Positions 11,279-18,912 of a stretch of 40,018 nucleotides of DNA are shown one piece after another. The position numbers were made by a program, and so were the translations under genes. The stretch spans positions 1 through 40,018 of the forward strand of contig JAQWLX010000086.1 in the NCBI GenBank assembly GCA_029247075.1, written 5' to 3'. Each line of letters begins with the position of its first letter. Position 1 is the stretch's first letter. The notes beneath the pieces are model-generated. The model worked only from the letters and a program-made list of their open reading frames with translations, did no database searches and was not told the origin of the DNA. The DNA comes from Halieaceae bacterium (GTDB taxonomy: Bacteria; Pseudomonadota; Gammaproteobacteria; Pseudomonadales; Halieaceae).

Positions 11279-12568
11279 TCATGGATCAAGATGTTTAGTA
11301 TTTGGATGTTCGTTGGGTTTAAAACCAGGTTTAACTAAGCACAACTGCACAGCCCCTATAACTCGCTCTCGAAAACCACCTTCACAATAAGCGAGATAAA
11401 ATTCCCACATTCGAATAAATCTTTCGTCAAATCCCTGGCGGACGACTTCCTCTGATTTGGATAAAAATCTACCTCTCCAGATAGATAAAGTTGTTGCATA
11501 GTCATGTGCTATATCTCGTAAGTGCGTGATTTGCATATCCGTATCTCTCCCTACATGGTATGCAATTTTTCCTATTGAAGGGAGGCAGCCTCCAGGGAAA
11601 ATATATTTCTTAATGAAATCAACCGTATTGGTGGCGGCTCGATATCTTTGATCTGGGATGGTTATTGCCTGTAATACCATCTTTCCATTTGGCGTGAGTA
11701 GTCGACTGCAAGATTCAAAATATTTCCCGAAAAACTGGTCACCTACTGCTTCTATCATCTCTATTGAAACCAGTTTATCAAACTGCCCGCTTAAGTTGCG
11801 GTAATCTTCGAGTAATACACTTATTTTTTCCTCTAAACCGTATTTCTTCACTTTCTCTAGCGCATATTTATATTGTTGTTTTGATATTGTCGTTGTTGTT
11901 ACTTGACAATTAAATTGTTGCGCAGAGTAGATGGCCATTCCACCCCAACCAGTGCCAATTTCTAATAGATGATCTTCTTCGGTTAGTTCTAGCAGTTGAC
12001 AAAGGTTGTCGAGTTTATCCTGAGACGCCTTGTCAAGATTACTCGCCCCATCAAAAAATACAGCTGACGAATACATCATTCTGTCATCTAGAAACAACTT
12101 AAAAAAATTATTACCTAGGTCGTAGTGAGCTGCTACGTTGCGTTGAGAACCTTCAACGGTATTTCTGTTAAAGAAATGTTCTATTGAGAGTCTGAGTCTG
12201 CCAGCCAGATTTTGCTGATAACGCATTTTTTCTAACATACTTAGATTCGCACTGAAAAGTTGTATGACTATTGGGAGGTTGGGGGAGTTCCAGCCTCCAT
12301 CTATATATGCTTCACCTGACGCTAATACTCCGCCACTTAAAATATTTCCATAAACGCTTCTGTCATGGATTATCACTTCTGCATTAAGATCTTTTCTTTG
12401 TTTGTCTTTGCCTAAAGTGATTTTCCCATAATCATCTTCTATAGTTAAAATCCCAACTGAAATTTTATTAAATAGTCTTAACAAAATGCTTCGGCTTAGC
12501 GATTTTTTTCTATCAGATAGTTGATTCATACCTAATAAATTAAGTAGTGAGATAATACCTTTAGTCAT
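11279..12568 (-). CDS. cfa: Cyclopropane-fatty-acyl-phospholipid synthase-like methyltransferase
   Basis: This is a predicted SAM-dependent enzyme acting on unsaturated acyl chains of membrane phospholipids, giving cyclopropane or methylated fatty acids. It has 429 residues: an N-terminal lipid-binding part, VAAHYDLGNNFFKLFLD and RMMYSSAVF (about 145-171), the SAM motif LLEIGTGWGG (201-210), KLVSIEMIEAVG, and C-terminal EGGFRERVIGAVQLCLVKP. The family includes Cfa and the UfaM methylase of furan-fatty-acid synthesis, and sequence inspection alone does not separate them. It is the last gene of the FAD-oxidoreductase/DUF1365/cfa operon; its ATG directly follows the DUF1365 stop (TAA-ATG). It is presumably controlled by the ECF sigma factor encoded divergently. 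Confidence 0.88.
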   Translation of the reverse strand: MTKGIISLLNLLGMNQLSDRKKSLSRSILLRLFNKISVGILTIEDDYGKITLGKDKQRKDLNAEVIIHDRSVYGNILSGGVLASGEAYIDGGWNSPNLPIVIQLFSANLSMLEKMRYQQNLAGRLRLSIEHFFNRNTVEGSQRNVAAHYDLGNNFFKLFLDDRMMYSSAVFFDGASNLDKASQDKLDNLCQLLELTEEDHLLEIGTGWGGMAIYSAQQFNCQVTTTTISKQQYKYALEKVKKYGLEEKISVLLEDYRNLSGQFDKLVSIEMIEAVGDQFFGKYFESCSRLLTPNGKMVLQAITIPDQRYRAATNTVDFIKKYIFPGGCLPSIGKIAYHVGRDTDMQITHLRDIAHDYATTLSIWRGRFLSKSEEVVRQGFDERFIRMWEFYLAYCEGGFRERVIGAVQLCLVKPGFKPNEHPNTKHLDP

Positions 12569-13324
12569 TTAATGCCTCGGAGAATTTCTTTTAGGATGAG
12601 AATGAAGTGGCGTACCCTTGACAAATAATTTGAGCGCTTCCCAATAGATAGCCGCTCCTATATTGATGGTCATGAGCGGATATCGAATCAGGTGTAGATT
12701 TAATGACCATGCATTTAAGGCTCTCGCTTTTAGAGCTAGGCTGGCATCGAAGATCAATCGATCATCCTGATAATTTTTTAAGTGGACTATTAATCTTGAT
12801 CCTGGTGCATTGCTGCGCCAGTGATACTGCATGTCCATTGGGTTGAAAGGAGACACATGAAGCGATTTTTCAAATTCTGTTTTTAACCAAGTGTCAGTCC
12901 CAGGCCCCTCGAGGACATAGCTGTGACGTTCGTCCCAAGGGGTGTTGTTAACCTCGGCGACAATATACTGCAGTTCGGTCATTTCTCGGTTGTAGCAATA
13001 ATAAAATGCGATAGGGTTCATTTGAAAACCAAAATAGCGAAGGTTTGCGAGCAAAAAAATTGGCCCGTCATGAAGAGCCTTTGTTTCCACAAATATTCTT
13101 TGCCGCACTTCTTCGATTAGTGAGTTTTTATTATCGCCTAGGAAATCTGACCTCTTAAAATAACCTAAAGCAAAATGCCGAGCGGACCAAAGCGGAATTT
13201 TATCTAGTAAACCCGGAAGTTCCTGAAGACAAATGAAGGGCATAAAAACACGGTACGTGAAACTATGCATAGTGGGTTCGTGTCTTCGGTGACGAAGTAG
13301 GCCGGTGTATAGTTTTGACTTCAT
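12569..13324 (-). CDS. DUF1365 domain protein
   Basis: A 251-residue protein of the DUF1365 family, whose biochemical role is unknown. Recognisable features are the opening LYTGLLRHRRHEPTMHSFTYRVFM, then RYFGFQMNPIAFYYCYN and AEVNNTPWDERHSYVL in the middle. No signal peptide is seen. In many proteobacteria this family is found between an FAD-dependent oxidoreductase and a Cfa-like methyltransferase, as here, implying a joint role in fatty-acid or lipid modification. It starts 17 bases after the oxidoreductase and runs directly into the cfa-like gene. The family call is firm, the function is inferred from context. Confidence 0.87.
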   Translation of the reverse strand: MKSKLYTGLLRHRRHEPTMHSFTYRVFMPFICLQELPGLLDKIPLWSARHFALGYFKRSDFLGDNKNSLIEEVRQRIFVETKALHDGPIFLLANLRYFGFQMNPIAFYYCYNREMTELQYIVAEVNNTPWDERHSYVLEGPGTDTWLKTEFEKSLHVSPFNPMDMQYHWRSNAPGSRLIVHLKNYQDDRLIFDASLALKARALNAWSLNLHLIRYPLMTINIGAAIYWEALKLFVKGTPLHSHPKRNSPRH

Positions 13325-13341
13325 GTGTTTATATGTGGCAC

Positions 13342-14583
13342 TTATGTTAGTTCTTTGGCAATTTTAAGAGCGCTATTAACTCCATCTTCATGGAAACCAT
13401 TCCCCCAATAGGCTCCGCAGTACCAGGTATTGGAAACGCCATTTATAGAAGCCCAATGTTTTTGGGCTGAGCAGGCCTTGAATGAGAATACTGGGTGTTG
13501 GTATTCGAATTTCCCCAGAATCTTACGCGCGTTTATTGAGTTGGAATCATTCAGAGTGATACAGAATGTCTCGGGAGCAGAGATTCCTTGAAGAATGTTC
13601 ATATTGTATGTGACTGTTGCCCTGTAATTATTCGATCTCAATCTATAGTTCCAGCTACTCCAGACTTTAGGATTTTTCGGTAATAGTTGAGTGTCAGTAT
13701 GTAAGATAACCTCATTAACCTGATAGGGTATGGCTCCTAAAATTTGCTTCTCTTCTTCGAGTGGATCCTCGAGAATTTTTAGGGCTTGATCAGAGTGAGT
13801 TGCTATGACGACCTGGTCAAAAAAATAAGTCTGTCCCCTTTCTACTTGAACACGAACTTTATTCTTTTCTTGTCGTGATATTGATGTTACTCGACAATTC
13901 GTAAGAATATTGTCTCTAAATCTCGAGGTTAGAGGAGCAAGGTATTCTCGAGAACCTCCTTCAATTACATGCCATTGAGGTCTATTTCGAATAGAGAGCA
14001 ATCCGTGATTATGAAAAAACGAAACAAAGAAAATAGCAGGGAAATCCAATACGTTATCCCAGTCTGCAGACCAGATTGCCGATCCCATGGCAATCAGATA
14101 TTTATCTACAAAAATTTTGCTATAGCTGTTTCTTAATAGGTAGCAGCCAAGTTTTTCTGAAGGGTCTATGTTGTTTGTTTTTAGATCGTTTGTGGCTTGT
14201 TTATTAAAACGAATAATGTCTCTAAGCATCGTCAAGAAAGACCAGGAAAATATATTTTGGCGTTGAGCAAAAATCGCATCTAGATTCTTGCCGGCATATT
14301 CAATACCTGTTTCTAGATCGCTTAAAGAAAAACCCATAGAGGTGTTTTTTTTTGCAATACCTAGCTCTTCTATTAATTTAACAAAATTTGGATAATTCCT
14401 ATCATTAAAGACAATGAAGCCTGTATCAATTTGGTAGGTCTTATCATCCAGTTGAACGTCACATGTCGCCGTGTGTCCACCAATTCTTCTCTCGGATTCA
14501 AAAACAGTTACTTCATGGCTCTTTTCGAGAAAGTAGGCACAGGAAAGACCTGAGATGCCTGAACCCACAATTCCTATTTTCAT
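13342..14583 (-). CDS. FAD-dependent oxidoreductase (amine-oxidase-like)
   Basis: This is a predicted flavoprotein. The N-terminus MKIGIVGSGISGLSCAYFL is a classic Rossmann dinucleotide fold (GxGxxG at 7-12), followed by the FAD-ribose glutamate (VFESERRIGGHT) and the conserved IDTGFIVFNDRNYPNF. The C-terminal NTWYCGAYWGNGFHEDGV is the second FAD contact. Similarity is to amine-oxidase or desaturase-like NAD(P)/FAD proteins; the substrate is probably a fatty acyl chain, from context. The track start (TTG, 14598) is replaced by the ATG at 14583, which fits the Rossmann start and has AAGGG upstream. It is the first gene of the lipid-modification operon and has a promoter of the same type as the divergent sigma gene. 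Confidence 0.86.
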   Translation of the reverse strand: MKIGIVGSGISGLSCAYFLEKSHEVTVFESERRIGGHTATCDVQLDDKTYQIDTGFIVFNDRNYPNFVKLIEELGIAKKNTSMGFSLSDLETGIEYAGKNLDAIFAQRQNIFSWSFLTMLRDIIRFNKQATNDLKTNNIDPSEKLGCYLLRNSYSKIFVDKYLIAMGSAIWSADWDNVLDFPAIFFVSFFHNHGLLSIRNRPQWHVIEGGSREYLAPLTSRFRDNILTNCRVTSISRQEKNKVRVQVERGQTYFFDQVVIATHSDQALKILEDPLEEEKQILGAIPYQVNEVILHTDTQLLPKNPKVWSSWNYRLRSNNYRATVTYNMNILQGISAPETFCITLNDSNSINARKILGKFEYQHPVFSFKACSAQKHWASINGVSNTWYCGAYWGNGFHEDGVNSALKIAKELT

Positions 14584-14626
14584 AGCACCCTTGGCCAAAA
14601 TATTTTACTTTATCTAACTTACCGTG

Positions 14627-14653
14627 TTACGAATTATAGCTTTTTTTGGATCA
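14627..14653 (-). promoter_or_regulatory. ECF sigma promoter of the FAD/DUF1365/cfa operon
   Basis: On the minus strand TGATCC is followed by 16 bases and CGTAA. The same hexamer, spacing and -10 occur in the promoter facing the sigma gene, so one sigma factor probably reads both. TGATCC is the -35 known for ChrR-partnered sigma factors. The leader to the ATG is about 35-40 bases. Confidence 0.75.
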
Positions 14654-14672
14654 ACCTTTTAAAAACTTAAGA

Positions 14673-14686
14673 GGATCATATGATCC
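14673..14686. repeat. Palindrome GGATCATATGATCC overlapping the sigma promoter
   Basis: This is a perfect 14-base palindrome made of two opposed TGATCC hexamers. The plus-strand copy is the -35 of the sigma-gene promoter. The minus-strand copy has no CGTAA 16 bases on, so it is unlikely to be a promoter by itself. It may be an operator or chance. Confidence 0.5.
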
Positions 14687-14707
14687 GAAAGAGGAAAAAG
14701 TTCGTAA
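14681..14707 (+). promoter_or_regulatory. ECF sigma promoter of the sigma factor-chrR operon
   Basis: TGATCC (14681-14686), a 16-base spacer and CGTAA (14703-14707) mirror the divergent promoter exactly. It lies about 50 bases before the sigma-gene ATG, which suggests positive autoregulation, as known for RpoE-ChrR. Confidence 0.75.
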
Positions 14708-14759
14708 ATGCAGGAAGTCACCATACTTGGTAAACTATTAACACACACAGAGTGGACTT

Positions 14760-15350
14760 ATGGCAGTGCCAGATTCAAAAAAGACCGAAGATCAAAAGGA
14801 CTGGGATGCATGTCTCGCGTCGATAGCTGTCTCCAATTCAGAGGCATTTGCGGATTTTTTCAATCACTTCGCCCCGTTAATTAAGTCATTTGCTTTTTCA
14901 GGGTCTTCTATGTCTGCAATCCATGCCGATGAATTGGTTCAGGAAGTCATGATTAAAGTTTGGCAAAAAGCAGCAGCATTTGATCCTAAGAAAGCCTCAG
15001 CAACCACTTGGTTATATGCGGTCGCTAGAAACTGCAGAACTGATCTCTACAGGAAGCTTCGAAAATTTGATACGCCCCTAACTGCAGAAGATTTGATGAT
15101 AGAGGAAGAGTCGCAAGAAGCGTTTGATCTCTTACAAATAAAGCGGAATGCTGAAACTATTCGAGAAAAGCTACAAGCCTTACCGAATGAGCAAAGACAG
15201 GTTATCGCAAAAATCTACATGGAAGGAAAATCTCACTCAGAAGTTTCCGCTGAATTAGACCTGCCATTGGGTACCGTTAAATCGAGAGTGCGCCTAGCGA
15301 TTAATAAGCTCGGTGTTCAGTTGGCACCTACGGGAGATTCGCATGATTAA
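14760..15350 (+). CDS. ECF sigma factor, RpoE/ChrR (ECF11) type
   Basis: This is an alternative sigma factor that directs RNA polymerase to stress promoters. The 196 residues have sigma region 2 (DELVQEVMIKVWQKAAAFDPKKA, ATTWLYAVARNCRTDLYRK, about 60-100) and sigma region 4 (ALPNEQRQVIAKIYMEGKSH, LPLGTVKSRVRLAINKL, about 140-185) and lack regions 1.1 and 3, as usual for ECF factors. Its immediate partner is a zinc ChrR-type anti-sigma that overlaps it by 8 bases, placing it with the Rhodobacter RpoE singlet-oxygen group rather than E. coli RpoE. A TGATCC-N16-CGTAA element upstream implies that it activates its own gene and the divergent lipid operon. Confidence 0.92.
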   Translation: MAVPDSKKTEDQKDWDACLASIAVSNSEAFADFFNHFAPLIKSFAFSGSSMSAIHADELVQEVMIKVWQKAAAFDPKKASATTWLYAVARNCRTDLYRKLRKFDTPLTAEDLMIEEESQEAFDLLQIKRNAETIREKLQALPNEQRQVIAKIYMEGKSHSEVSAELDLPLGTVKSRVRLAINKLGVQLAPTGDSHD

Positions 15351-15996
15351 GCATCATCCAGATGTTAATTTGTTGGTGGATTATGTGTCGGGAAATATTT
15401 CCCCTGCGAAGGCCGGATGCATTTCTACTCATAATAGCTATTGTGGTATTTGCCGAAAAACCACCTTCCAGTTGGAGACTTTGGGCGCAGAGTTATTAAA
15501 AGATTTAGAGTCACCACCAGTCCATAATTCGACCTTCGATTCAGTGTTAGCTAGATTAGAAAATTCACCCCAAGGCCAGAGTGAATCGTTGAATTGCAAG
15601 CAAGAGTCGTTTCCTCTTGTATTAAAGAAGTTAATGAGTAAAGAGTTTGAAGATCTTGAGTGGAGGAAGGTGACTAGTGCGTTATCTGTAAGTCGGTTAC
15701 ATACAGGTGACTTGAAACATGAATGTGCGCTATACCAAATAGCCGCTGGAGGAAAGATACCTGAACACGATCATAAAGGTGTCGAGATGACTGTTGTCAT
15801 TAGCGGAGGATTTTCCGATAGGCAGGGTGTGTATCATAAGGGAGATTTCATTTTTCGTGAAAAAGATCAGATTCACGCGCCAACAGCATTAGAATCAGAA
15901 GATTGTATTTGTTTGGCTGTTTCTGACGCTCCCCTGCGTTTTACAGATTGGAGATATCGCTGGATGAATCCCTTTCTTCGTTTTAGTGCAGGTTAG
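15343..15996 (+). CDS. chrR: ChrR-type zinc anti-sigma factor with cupin domain
   Basis: This protein would hold the ECF sigma factor inactive until singlet oxygen or related oxidants release it. The track start (15313) is replaced by the ATG at 15343 with GGGAG upstream, giving 217 residues and an 8-base overlap with the sigma gene. The N-terminal zinc anti-sigma motif is His5-X24-His30-X3-Cys34-X2-Cys37. The C-terminal cupin has His142-X-His144-X3-Glu148 and His178. Both metal sites have the same spacing as Rhodobacter sphaeroides ChrR, shifted by one residue. It is soluble with no membrane helix. Its Cys85 and Cys128 are not part of these sites. Confidence 0.92.
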   Translation: MIKHHPDVNLLVDYVSGNISPAKAGCISTHNSYCGICRKTTFQLETLGAELLKDLESPPVHNSTFDSVLARLENSPQGQSESLNCKQESFPLVLKKLMSKEFEDLEWRKVTSALSVSRLHTGDLKHECALYQIAAGGKIPEHDHKGVEMTVVISGGFSDRQGVYHKGDFIFREKDQIHAPTALESEDCICLAVSDAPLRFTDWRYRWMNPFLRFSAG

Positions 15997-16122: not shown

Positions 16123-17265
16123 ATGCATCTAGTCGTACCTAGAGAAATCCTCCCCGGGGAAAATAGAGTTCCGATTATTCCAGATACTGTAAATAAGTTT
16201 TGTCGTCTAGGAGCGATCGTCTCTATTGAGAGTGGTTTAGGTAGTAGGTCAGGGTTCACTGATGAGGAATACGAGCAAGCTGGAGCAGTAATCTCTTCGG
16301 AAAGAGCCCAATTAATTCAGAGTGCGGATATGCTACTCAGACTGCGCAAGCCTGCAGTGGGAGACGTGACTTTGATGAAAGAAGGATGTGTTCACGTTAG
16401 TTATTTGGATCCATTTAATGAGAAGGAATTAGTATCCGCACTGATGGTTAGAGGTGTAACCGCAATAAGTATGGAGATGATTCCAAGGACAACTCGCAGC
16501 CAAAAAATGGACGCCTTAAGTTCGCAAGCAAATCTTGCTGGTTATGTGATGGTGATGCAGGCGGCGATCCATTTGCCGAGGATATTCCCAATGATGATGA
16601 CCCCAGCTGGAACATTGAAGCCCGCAAATGTATTTGTTATTGGAGCAGGTGTAGCAGGTTTGCAGGCAATAGCAACTGCTAAGCGATTGGGAGCGAAAGT
16701 GACTGCTTTTGACACTCGTCCAGTCGTCGCAGAGCAAGTGCAATCTTTAGGCGCTAAGTTTCTCGAAATTGACTTGGGTGAGACTGGTCAAACTAGTGAT
16801 GGATATGCTAAAGAGTTAAGCGCCGAGCAAGTGGAGTTACAAAAGAAAGCGCAGGCCGAGGTTATAGCTAAGTCAGATGTTGTTATTACGACGGCGCAGG
16901 TATTTGGCCGAAAACCGCCGGTGCTTGTTACAAAGGAAATGATCTCTGGGATGTCTCCAGGTTCGGTAATCGTTGATATGGCCGCAGAAACTGGAGGCAA
17001 TGTCGAAGGCTCAGTTCCTGATGGAGTGATTGAGATTTCTGGAGTTACCGTAATTGGTAAGGCTAATTTAGCAGGATCGGTAGCAAAAGACGCTAGTCAA
17101 ATGTATTCGTCTAATCTTTTTAATTTGATTGAGGATAATTGGAGCGAAGAAAAAAATGCCTTCATTGTTGATTTTGATGACGACATCTTGCGTGGATGTG
17201 TCATTACCCATGGCGGAGAAGTAGTCCACGATACGATTAAGCAAATATGGCAAGGAGACTCTTGA
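16123..17265 (+). CDS. pntAA: NAD(P) transhydrogenase subunit alpha part 1 (PntAA)
   Basis: This is the soluble NAD(H)-binding domain (dI) of the proton-translocating transhydrogenase, which uses the proton gradient to reduce NADP+ with NADH. The 380 residues begin MHLVVPREILPGENRVPIIPD. The NAD Rossmann motif VIGAGVAGLQAIATAKRLGAKVTAFDTRP lies near 172-200, and the nucleotide-binding SGMSPGSVIVDMAAETGGN follows. The protein ends after dI; the membrane part is a separate gene, as in Rhodospirillum and Pseudomonas and unlike E. coli PntA. pntAB starts one base after the stop codon, so the three pnt genes are an operon. Confidence 0.95.
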   Translation: MHLVVPREILPGENRVPIIPDTVNKFCRLGAIVSIESGLGSRSGFTDEEYEQAGAVISSERAQLIQSADMLLRLRKPAVGDVTLMKEGCVHVSYLDPFNEKELVSALMVRGVTAISMEMIPRTTRSQKMDALSSQANLAGYVMVMQAAIHLPRIFPMMMTPAGTLKPANVFVIGAGVAGLQAIATAKRLGAKVTAFDTRPVVAEQVQSLGAKFLEIDLGETGQTSDGYAKELSAEQVELQKKAQAEVIAKSDVVITTAQVFGRKPPVLVTKEMISGMSPGSVIVDMAAETGGNVEGSVPDGVIEISGVTVIGKANLAGSVAKDASQMYSSNLFNLIEDNWSEEKNAFIVDFDDDILRGCVITHGGEVVHDTIKQIWQGDS

Positions 17266-17266
17266 C

Positions 17267-17554
17267 ATGATTCCTCCCGAGGTTTTTTTAACATTTATTC
17301 TAATGTTGTCGGTCTTTTTAGGTTTTGAATTGATTAGCAAGGTTCCTGCGACCTTACATACTCCTTTAATGTCTGGTGCGAACGCGATTTCAGGTATTAC
17401 GCTAGTTGGTGCGGTCGGTTTGGCGGGGACTGGAAATCACGACTTGTCCAATTGGCTTGGTGCTGCTGCGGTTGGCCTCGCCACTATAAACGTGGTGGGT
17501 GGATATTTGGTTACTGATCGTATGCTTGCAATGTTTAAAAAGAAGGAGAATTGA
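17267..17554 (+). CDS. pntAB: NAD(P) transhydrogenase subunit alpha part 2 (PntAB)
   Basis: This is the small membrane component contributing part of the proton channel (dII) of transhydrogenase. The 95 residues contain three hydrophobic helices and the family stretch VPATLHTPLMSGANAISGIT, followed by a short lysine-rich cytoplasmic tail (MFKKKEN). An AAGGAG lies before the ATG within the end of pntAA. The stop overlaps the region upstream of pntB. Confidence 0.95.
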   Translation: MIPPEVFLTFILMLSVFLGFELISKVPATLHTPLMSGANAISGITLVGAVGLAGTGNHDLSNWLGAAAVGLATINVVGGYLVTDRMLAMFKKKEN

Positions 17555-17556
17555 TT

Positions 17557-18912
17557 ATGGACATTCTTATTCAGTTCTCTTTTGTGGTCGCTGCTGCCTT
17601 GTTTATTTTTGGTCTTAAGCAGCTTGGCTCACCCGCCACCGCTAGGCGAGGAAATTTAATTTCATCGATTGGAATGTTGATTGCAATTGTGTCAGCACTG
17701 GTTGATCAAGGGATTGTTGAATATCAATTTATTCTAATTGGCATAGCTCTAGGCGCAATCGTTGGTGTTGCGGCGGCGCGATTGGTGCAGATGACCTCTA
17801 TGCCTGAGATGGTTGCACTATTTAATGGGTTTGGAGGGATGGCCAGTTTACTTGTCGGTTGGGCTGCGTTGAGTCCAACTGCTGGCACCTTTAATCTTGT
17901 GACGATTGTCTTGTCGATTCTTATTGGAGGTTTGACTTTTACTGGTTCGTTAGTGGCCTATGGCAAATTAAGTGAGACCATCAGTAGTGCCGCCGTGATG
18001 TTTACGGGGCAGCAAGTCGTCAACAGTTTGATTGTTCTCAGTATTCTCGCAAGTGCATTTATGTTTTGTTTGCAGCCAACTGATCCTCAATGGCTGTACT
18101 TGGTAGTTGGCCTGTCTCTGCTTTTTGGAATTATGGCGGTTATTCCAATTGGCGGAGCTGATATGCCTGTAGTAATTAGTCTGCTTAATTCATATTCAGG
18201 ATTGGCTGCCTGCGCTGCTGGGTTTGCCGTAGATAACAATATTCTTATTGTAGCTGGTTCTCTGGTTGGAGCGAGTGGGATTATATTGACTCAGATTATG
18301 TGTAAAGCTATGAACCGTTCCTTGGCAAATGTTCTGTTTTCTGGATTTGGTAGCGCACAAGCTCAAGGCGGAGAAGTTGAAGGCGAAGTGAAGCCGATAA
18401 CGGTAGAGGACGCTTACTATGTCCTAGAAGCGGCAACAAATATAGCTTTTATTCCAGGCTATGGTATGGCGGTAGCGCAAGCTCAACATGTCGTTAAAGA
18501 GCTTGCCGAGTTATTGGAACAAAACGGTGCTGAAGTCAATTTCGGCATTCATCCAGTTGCAGGTCGTATGCCAGGGCATATGAACGTACTTTTAGCTGAA
18601 GCGGATGTTCCTTACGATCAATTACTTGAGATGGATGAAATTAATCCGCGGATAGAGACAGTAGATGTTGCGATTGTTATTGGCGCAAATGATGTCGTGA
18701 ATCCAGCGGCCCGCGAGATGGAAAGCTCTCCAATCTATGGAATGCCAGTTATAAATGTTGATCATGCACGTACAGTGTTTGTACTAAAGAGGTCTATGGC
18801 ATCCGGGTTTGCGGGTATCGAAAACCCGCTCTTTTATAAAGATAATACTCGCATGCTATTTGGAGATGCAAAGGAATCAATCGGTGGTCTGGTAAGGGAA
18901 TTTGGTAGCTAG
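17557..18912 (+). CDS. pntB: NAD(P) transhydrogenase subunit beta (PntB)
   Basis: PntB supplies the remaining membrane helices and the NADP(H)-binding domain dIII. About eight to nine hydrophobic segments come first (MTSMPEMVALFNGFGGMASLL and IGGADMPVVISLLNSYSGLA are conserved). The C-terminal dIII has GYGMAVAQAQHVVKELAELL, the NADP-binding HPVAGRMPGHMNVLLAEA, and NDVVNPAA. The track start is TTG 17551, but AAGGAG at 17543-17548 is correctly spaced for the ATG at 17557, giving 451 residues (E. coli 462). The complex supplies NADPH for biosynthesis and oxidant defence. Confidence 0.95.
   Translation: MDILIQFSFVVAAALFIFGLKQLGSPATARRGNLISSIGMLIAIVSALVDQGIVEYQFILIGIALGAIVGVAAARLVQMTSMPEMVALFNGFGGMASLLVGWAALSPTAGTFNLVTIVLSILIGGLTFTGSLVAYGKLSETISSAAVMFTGQQVVNSLIVLSILASAFMFCLQPTDPQWLYLVVGLSLLFGIMAVIPIGGADMPVVISLLNSYSGLAACAAGFAVDNNILIVAGSLVGASGIILTQIMCKAMNRSLANVLFSGFGSAQAQGGEVEGEVKPITVEDAYYVLEAATNIAFIPGYGMAVAQAQHVVKELAELLEQNGAEVNFGIHPVAGRMPGHMNVLLAEADVPYDQLLEMDEINPRIETVDVAIVIGANDVVNPAAREMESSPIYGMPVINVDHARTVFVLKRSMASGFAGIENPLFYKDNTRMLFGDAKESIGGLVREFGS

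Follow-up and report, generated by a model that had tools for sequence, protein, structure and literature searches.

A probable furan fatty acid operon facing a sigma-E/ChrR pair in a Halieaceae bacterium

Gene content and conservation of the locus

The locus described here lies on contig JAQWLX010000086.1 of a Halieaceae bacterium (assembly GCA_029247075.1) and was analysed within a stretch of 40,018 nucleotides, in the following termed the window, that stems from a 2.14 Mb metagenome-assembled genome (MAG) of 71% completeness. It is very probably a ufaD-ufaO-ufaM operon for furan fatty acid formation under the control of a sigma-E/ChrR pair of the extracytoplasmic function (ECF) group ECF11. 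All three enzymes of the pathway are encoded and all five genes have orthologues in Cereibacter, where sigma, chrR, ufaD and ufaO are found together and ufaM resides beside a photolyase gene. Transcription on the minus strand runs from ufaD through ufaO to ufaM with gaps of 17 and 0 nucleotides. The sigma and chrR genes, which overlap by 8 nucleotides, are divergent from this operon across an intergenic region of 176 nucleotides (Table 1). A sequence-only reading of the stretch had proposed just such a tight operon of genes for a flavin adenine dinucleotide (FAD) oxidoreductase, a DUF1365 protein and a Cfa-like methyltransferase, and open reading frames, protein families and spacing bear it out. 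The TTG at 14598 originally listed as the start of ufaD is probably wrong: the orthologue from a congener begins at an ATG and comprises 413 amino acids, and the internal ATG at 14583 gives the window protein the same length. Family searches returned one DUF1365 gene and one full-length CMAS gene in the window genome, a count that holds for the recovered part of the MAG.

Table 1. Features of the ufaDOM/sigma-chrR locus (window positions; assignments are predictions)
Feature	Position	Strand	Basis
ufaM, S-adenosylmethionine (SAM)-dependent cis-vaccenoyl-phospholipid methyltransferase, CMAS family	11279..12568	-	429 amino acids; PF02353 E=4e-82; UfaM clade; signature residues
ufaO, DUF1365 furan-forming oxygenase	12569..13324	-	251 amino acids; PF07103 E=1.6e-71; function by analogy (PMC7380195)
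ufaD, FAD-dependent desaturase of the methylated acyl chain	13342..14583	-	PF01593 E=2.5e-26, PF13450; amine-oxidase-like
Predicted sigma-E promoter of ufaDOM	14627..14653	-	TGATCC-N16-CGTAA, about 44 nucleotides before ufaD
Predicted sigma-E promoter of sigma-chrR (autoregulation)	14681..14707	+	TGATCC-N16-CGTAA, 52 nucleotides before sigma
ECF sigma factor, orthologue of R. sphaeroides RpoE (ECF11)	14760..15350	+	PF04542, PF08281
ChrR zinc anti-sigma factor with cupin domain	15343..15996	+	TIGR02451, 162 bits (cutoff 124.5)

The order ufaD-ufaO-ufaM recurs in most of 60 fetched loci from several classes of the phylum and the arrangement is therefore not due to chance. DUF1365 itself was present in 30 of 38 genomes in a search of relatives and, across a sample of the phylum, in 130 of 299. 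Within the same family the trio is unbroken in 19 of 20 loci (the remaining one lies at a contig end) and stands without any recognised accessory gene in 11 of the 20, a figure that was taken from gene-order lines and is approximate at contig ends. Other loci of the family add genes for DUF2878, an unnamed protein of 251 amino acids, SDR, SnoaL-like proteins or photolyase. Photolyase, DUF2878, DUF3833, SDR and SnoaL genes are all missing from the window operon. The absence of the first three had been pointed out before, and such genes do flank the operon in other loci; a scan of cluster representatives revealed no lipocalin gene. In this family, the compact sigma-chrR/ufaDOM layout is accordingly the usual one, so that the "minimal" composition noted earlier is nothing special; R. 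palustris possesses the same three-gene order. Three loci from more distant members of the phylum (L187, L192, L193) carry ufaD-ufaO without an adjoining ufaM of the operon type, a layout that resembles the split arrangement of R. sphaeroides.

Sigma factor, ChrR and the facing promoters

References for orthology were located by scanning named genomes with ChrR from R. sphaeroides (sequence of PDB entry 2z2s), which led to Cereibacter johrii (ChrR 95% identical) and Luteovulum azotoformans. In each of them sigma-chrR adjoins ufaD-ufaO, and a single full-length CMAS gene is situated beside a photolyase gene. As this matches the arrangement of RSP2143-2144, the photolyase-linked enzyme was used as the UfaM reference. 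The sigma factor of the window is 39% identical to RpoE from C. johrii. ChrR aligns almost end to end with chain B of 2z2s, and in this alignment the zinc ligands are kept both in the anti-sigma part (His6, His31, Cys35 and Cys38) and in the cupin domain (His141, His143, Glu147 and His177).

Two facing TGATCC-N16-CGTAA sites occupy the region between ufaD and the sigma gene. Of 28 divergent loci, 25 had the slightly shorter pattern TGATCC-N16-CGTA on the sigma side and 23 had it on the ufaD side (0.05 and 0.06, respectively, for shuffled sequences). These 28 include the window, on which the pattern was shaped, such that only the other loci provide independent evidence. Both sites are predicted to be promoters of the sigma-E type, and the pair is conserved. 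Genome-wide, the pattern yielded 14 matches as compared with 6 for a reversed-pattern control in one scan and 16 as compared with 21 in another, and thus says little at this scale. One of the matching sites is located upstream of a ferrochelatase gene (G000:C3:8673-8698, L234). None of the other 25 ferrochelatase loci from relatives, those of the same genus included, shows it, and it is probably a chance occurrence; ferrochelatase was therefore dismissed as a regulon member. Photolyases were found in the window genome and the motif was absent from their fetched flanks; a second stretch of the photolyase family (G000:C109:812-1411, L249) contains an in-frame TAA within the match.

As in characterised relatives, the inducing signal in the window organism would be singlet oxygen. 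It could be argued instead that sigma-ChrR senses another signal, such as organic hydroperoxides or metals, and that the lipid genes serve in general envelope stress, a proposal that concerns the inducer only and is compatible with a furan pathway. In fact, a second, distinct route makes ChrR from R. sphaeroides responsive to organic hydroperoxide as well (PMC6852236, PMC3818230). Furthermore, neither rhodopsin nor reaction-centre genes were found in the 71% complete window MAG. On the other hand, the cupin domain, which is needed for the singlet oxygen response, retains its zinc ligands, the MAG is incomplete and a congener possesses a type II reaction centre; we regard a different inducer as unlikely. 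Type II reaction centres were detected in this congener and in two other members of the family, and photosensitiser-derived singlet oxygen is therefore plausible in this lineage. Such a setting would suit Halieaceae (OM60/NOR5). The congener carries two type II photosynthetic reaction-centre genes (G001:C1:41206-42896), and their absence from the window MAG may reflect gain, loss or incompleteness.

Genes for NAD(P) transhydrogenase (pnt, 16123-18912) are located 126 nucleotides beyond chrR, on its strand, and 12 of 20 loci of the family have pntB homologues on the chrR side. This may reflect a functional link, with a role in NADPH supply under oxidative stress, or mere synteny.

Methyltransferase and DUF1365 protein

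The window methyltransferase is 38% identical to UfaM from C. johrii and 36% identical to E. coli Cfa over 351 amino acids. The latter value, together with the fact that no other full CMAS was found in the incomplete genome, would fit a common housekeeping cyclopropane synthase whose position beside stress genes is accidental, in which case the gene set would make cyclopropane lipids. It also fits that overexpression of ufaM from Halomonas in E. coli was accompanied by cyclic fatty acids (PMC12089945). In a maximum-likelihood tree of 47 rows, however, the window enzyme, 31 other operon-linked enzymes and Cereibacter UfaM formed one group (support 97/93), in which a non-linked row (L232) and a long branch (L191) were also included, whereas Cfa from E. 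coli fell into a separate one (100/97) together with two housekeeping Cfas of the family to which the window organism belongs. The enzyme thus does not cluster with housekeeping Cfa, which the sequence-only reading had named among the outcomes that would refute it, and its score against the NCBIfam equivalog PRK11705 (280 bits) is below the cutoff of 400. A second, deep-branching CMAS-like methyltransferase near the ufa genes of five loci (L180, L182, L183, L185, L197) fell into a group of its own.

The active site points in the same direction. E. coli Cfa holds a catalytic bicarbonate by Glu239, His266 and Tyr317 (PMC11387697). While the two proteins share the CMAS family, SAM, a phospholipid acyl substrate and the residues corresponding to Glu239, Ile268 and Tyr317, the Cfa residues Gly236, His240, His266 and Pro279 are replaced by Glu, Ala, Gln and Asp (E270, A274, Q300 and D317 in the window protein) in 33 of 33 rows of the UfaM group, the long branch L191 being left out of this count. 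Glu239 and Tyr317 are retained throughout the group, the position of Cys139 is occupied by Ser, Ala or Gly, and the bicarbonate ligand set is incomplete in the window enzyme, with Gln300 in place of His266. This histidine is kept in all five solved relatives aligned (Cfa from E. coli and two other organisms, UmaA and a mycolic acid synthase). With tree and active site in such agreement, a housekeeping cyclopropane synthase appears highly improbable. Based on tree position and signature residues, the window methyltransferase is assigned to UfaM and not to Cfa, and the four-residue signature separates two kinds of protein that are routinely annotated alike. Loss of the bicarbonate ligand His266 would fit a methyl-alkene product instead of a cyclopropane; a partial literature search found no paper that ties the two together.

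UfaD and UfaO from the window are 37% (over 404 amino acids) and 32% (over 159 amino acids) identical to the respective C. johrii proteins, the latter being encoded beside sigma-chrR. The DUF1365 step had previously been put forward as biochemically undescribed and as the best candidate for new biology. This is not the case: the DUF1365 gene RSP1090 was deleted in 2013, resulting in sensitivity to singlet oxygen and stabilisation of ChrR (Nuss et al., 2013; PMC3818230), and in 2020 the DUF1365 protein was described as UfaO on the basis of in vivo, in vitro and 18O2 data, the furan oxygen stemming from O2 (Lemke et al., 2020; PMC7380195). The same authors left the reductant for UfaO unknown and did not have to add one. 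From the reported masses, the C20H36O2 diene methyl ester (308.27) plus O2 minus H2O gives exactly the C20H34O3 furan ester (322.25). Oxidation of the substrate thus pays for full reduction of O2 and no external reductant would be required by UfaO; an endoperoxide or hydroperoxide that subsequently eliminates water would suffice. On paper, this electron balance answers the published reductant puzzle.

Polar residues that are invariant, or nearly so, in a set of 98 UfaO sequences are H12, R14, Y24, D60, N103, E124, Y136, K153, S158, Y167 and K236. H12 is the only invariant histidine, which speaks against a two-histidine iron site without excluding one. An AlphaFold2 model (mean predicted local distance difference test score 82, predicted template modelling (TM) score 0.82) consists of a beta-rich body and a long C-terminal helix. 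Sequence searches returned no solved relatives of DUF1365, and a fold search of solved structures gave no match at E≤0.001. The best match, the fatty-acid-binding-like Ycf58 (3bdr; E=0.035, TM scores 0.38/0.56), is no more than a hint of a lipocalin-like barrel.

Taken together, these considerations lead us to a tentative proposal that we would sooner question than assert. UfaO, with a fold lacking a confident solved match and no classical two-histidine iron site, may be a self-contained O2-fixing ring closer rather than a reductant-driven monooxygenase, adding O2 across the conjugated methyl-diene to give an endoperoxide or hydroperoxide that loses water to form the furan. UfaM, in turn, may be a Cfa without the histidine that holds the catalytic base, whose intermediate loses a neighbouring chain proton and ends as an alkene and not as a cyclopropane.

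The divergence of UfaO bears the possibility that the pathway stops short or takes another course in this lineage, yielding methylated lipids with one or two double bonds, or a furan with other substituents, in place of the furan acid of R. sphaeroides. Of the three enzymes, UfaO has diverged most, its PF07103 score is below that of other genera in the family, and the furan product is unverified for gammaproteobacteria in the literature found. Nevertheless, residues conserved in the Rhodobacterales set as well as in the wider one are present in the window protein, and the trio is hardly ever separated in the family; we consider an altered or truncated pathway very unlikely.

Proposed pathway and relation to known systems

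In the scheme that we favour, the gene content, orthology, promoter pair, ChrR zinc ligands and UfaM-type active site observed at the locus are combined with chemistry, inducer and feedback adopted from characterised relatives. UfaM would methylate the double bond of a cis-vaccenoyl chain in a membrane phospholipid, giving a methyl-branched trans-alkene, the flavoprotein UfaD would desaturate this to a conjugated methyl-diene, and UfaO would add O2 and close the furan ring. Singlet oxygen would lead to breakdown of ChrR, upon which the freed sigma factor could transcribe its own operon and ufaDOM. The resulting furan lipids would scavenge singlet oxygen and are probably required for ChrR breakdown as in R. 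sphaeroides, such that a feedback loop would arise.

Several points weigh against this assignment. Identity to Cereibacter UfaO is only about 32%, C. johrii and L. azotoformans supply the tree references in place of R. sphaeroides 2.4.1 itself, and other lipid enzymes may be missed in the incomplete MAG. In the literature found, UfaM is the only one of the three enzymes whose gammaproteobacterial form has been expressed (PMC12089945). Of what the sequence-only reading had proposed about products, a ChrR-controlled set for membrane-lipid modification is upheld, with furan fatty acids as the likely product; its furan suggestion was probably right, while its claim of novelty fails.

In R. sphaeroides, UfaM (a SAM methylase of cis-vaccenate), UfaD (a flavin desaturase) and UfaO are necessary and sufficient for formation of a methylated furan fatty acid (PMC7380195). 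Through C. johrii and L. azotoformans, its RSP1091-1087, rpoE-chrR and ufaM (RSP2144) correspond to the sigma factor, ChrR, UfaD, UfaO and UfaM of the window, and sigma-E promoters precede both operons. It differs in that ufaM is unlinked and located beside a photolyase gene and that the operon contains three further genes, dispensable for the furan acid, for a GPH symporter, a hypothetical protein and an SDR. RSP1089, considered as a second Cfa that might compete for orthology, is the GPH symporter (PMC7074977) and causes no ambiguity. In R. palustris, RPA2571-2570-2569 (ufaD-ufaO-ufaM) are necessary and sufficient for the 9M5 furan fatty acid (PMC7380195); the likeness of these same three genes, ordered by locus number, is one of gene order, and fufM is added there for a second methyl group.

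Among gammaproteobacteria, P. syringae (PSPTO_1043/1042, PSPTO_1121-1116), for which the sigma regulon was mapped by chromatin immunoprecipitation sequencing, has a core regulon with cfa, DUF1365-type and flavin amine oxidase genes, but its operon also contains photolyase and SDR genes and is situated away from sigma-chrR (PMC5507510). The report on Halomonas sp. YLGW01 describes ufaD-ufaO-ufaM as three consecutive genes and formation of 11-methyl-12-18:1 upon expression of the Halomonas UfaM in E. coli (PMC12089945). The furan genes belong to an eight-gene core sigma-E/ChrR regulon reported from both alpha- and gammaproteobacteria (PMC6852236). The window locus is an ordinary, close match to this furan fatty acid/singlet oxygen system and adds another family of gammaproteobacteria to the range of this known stress-lipid circuit.

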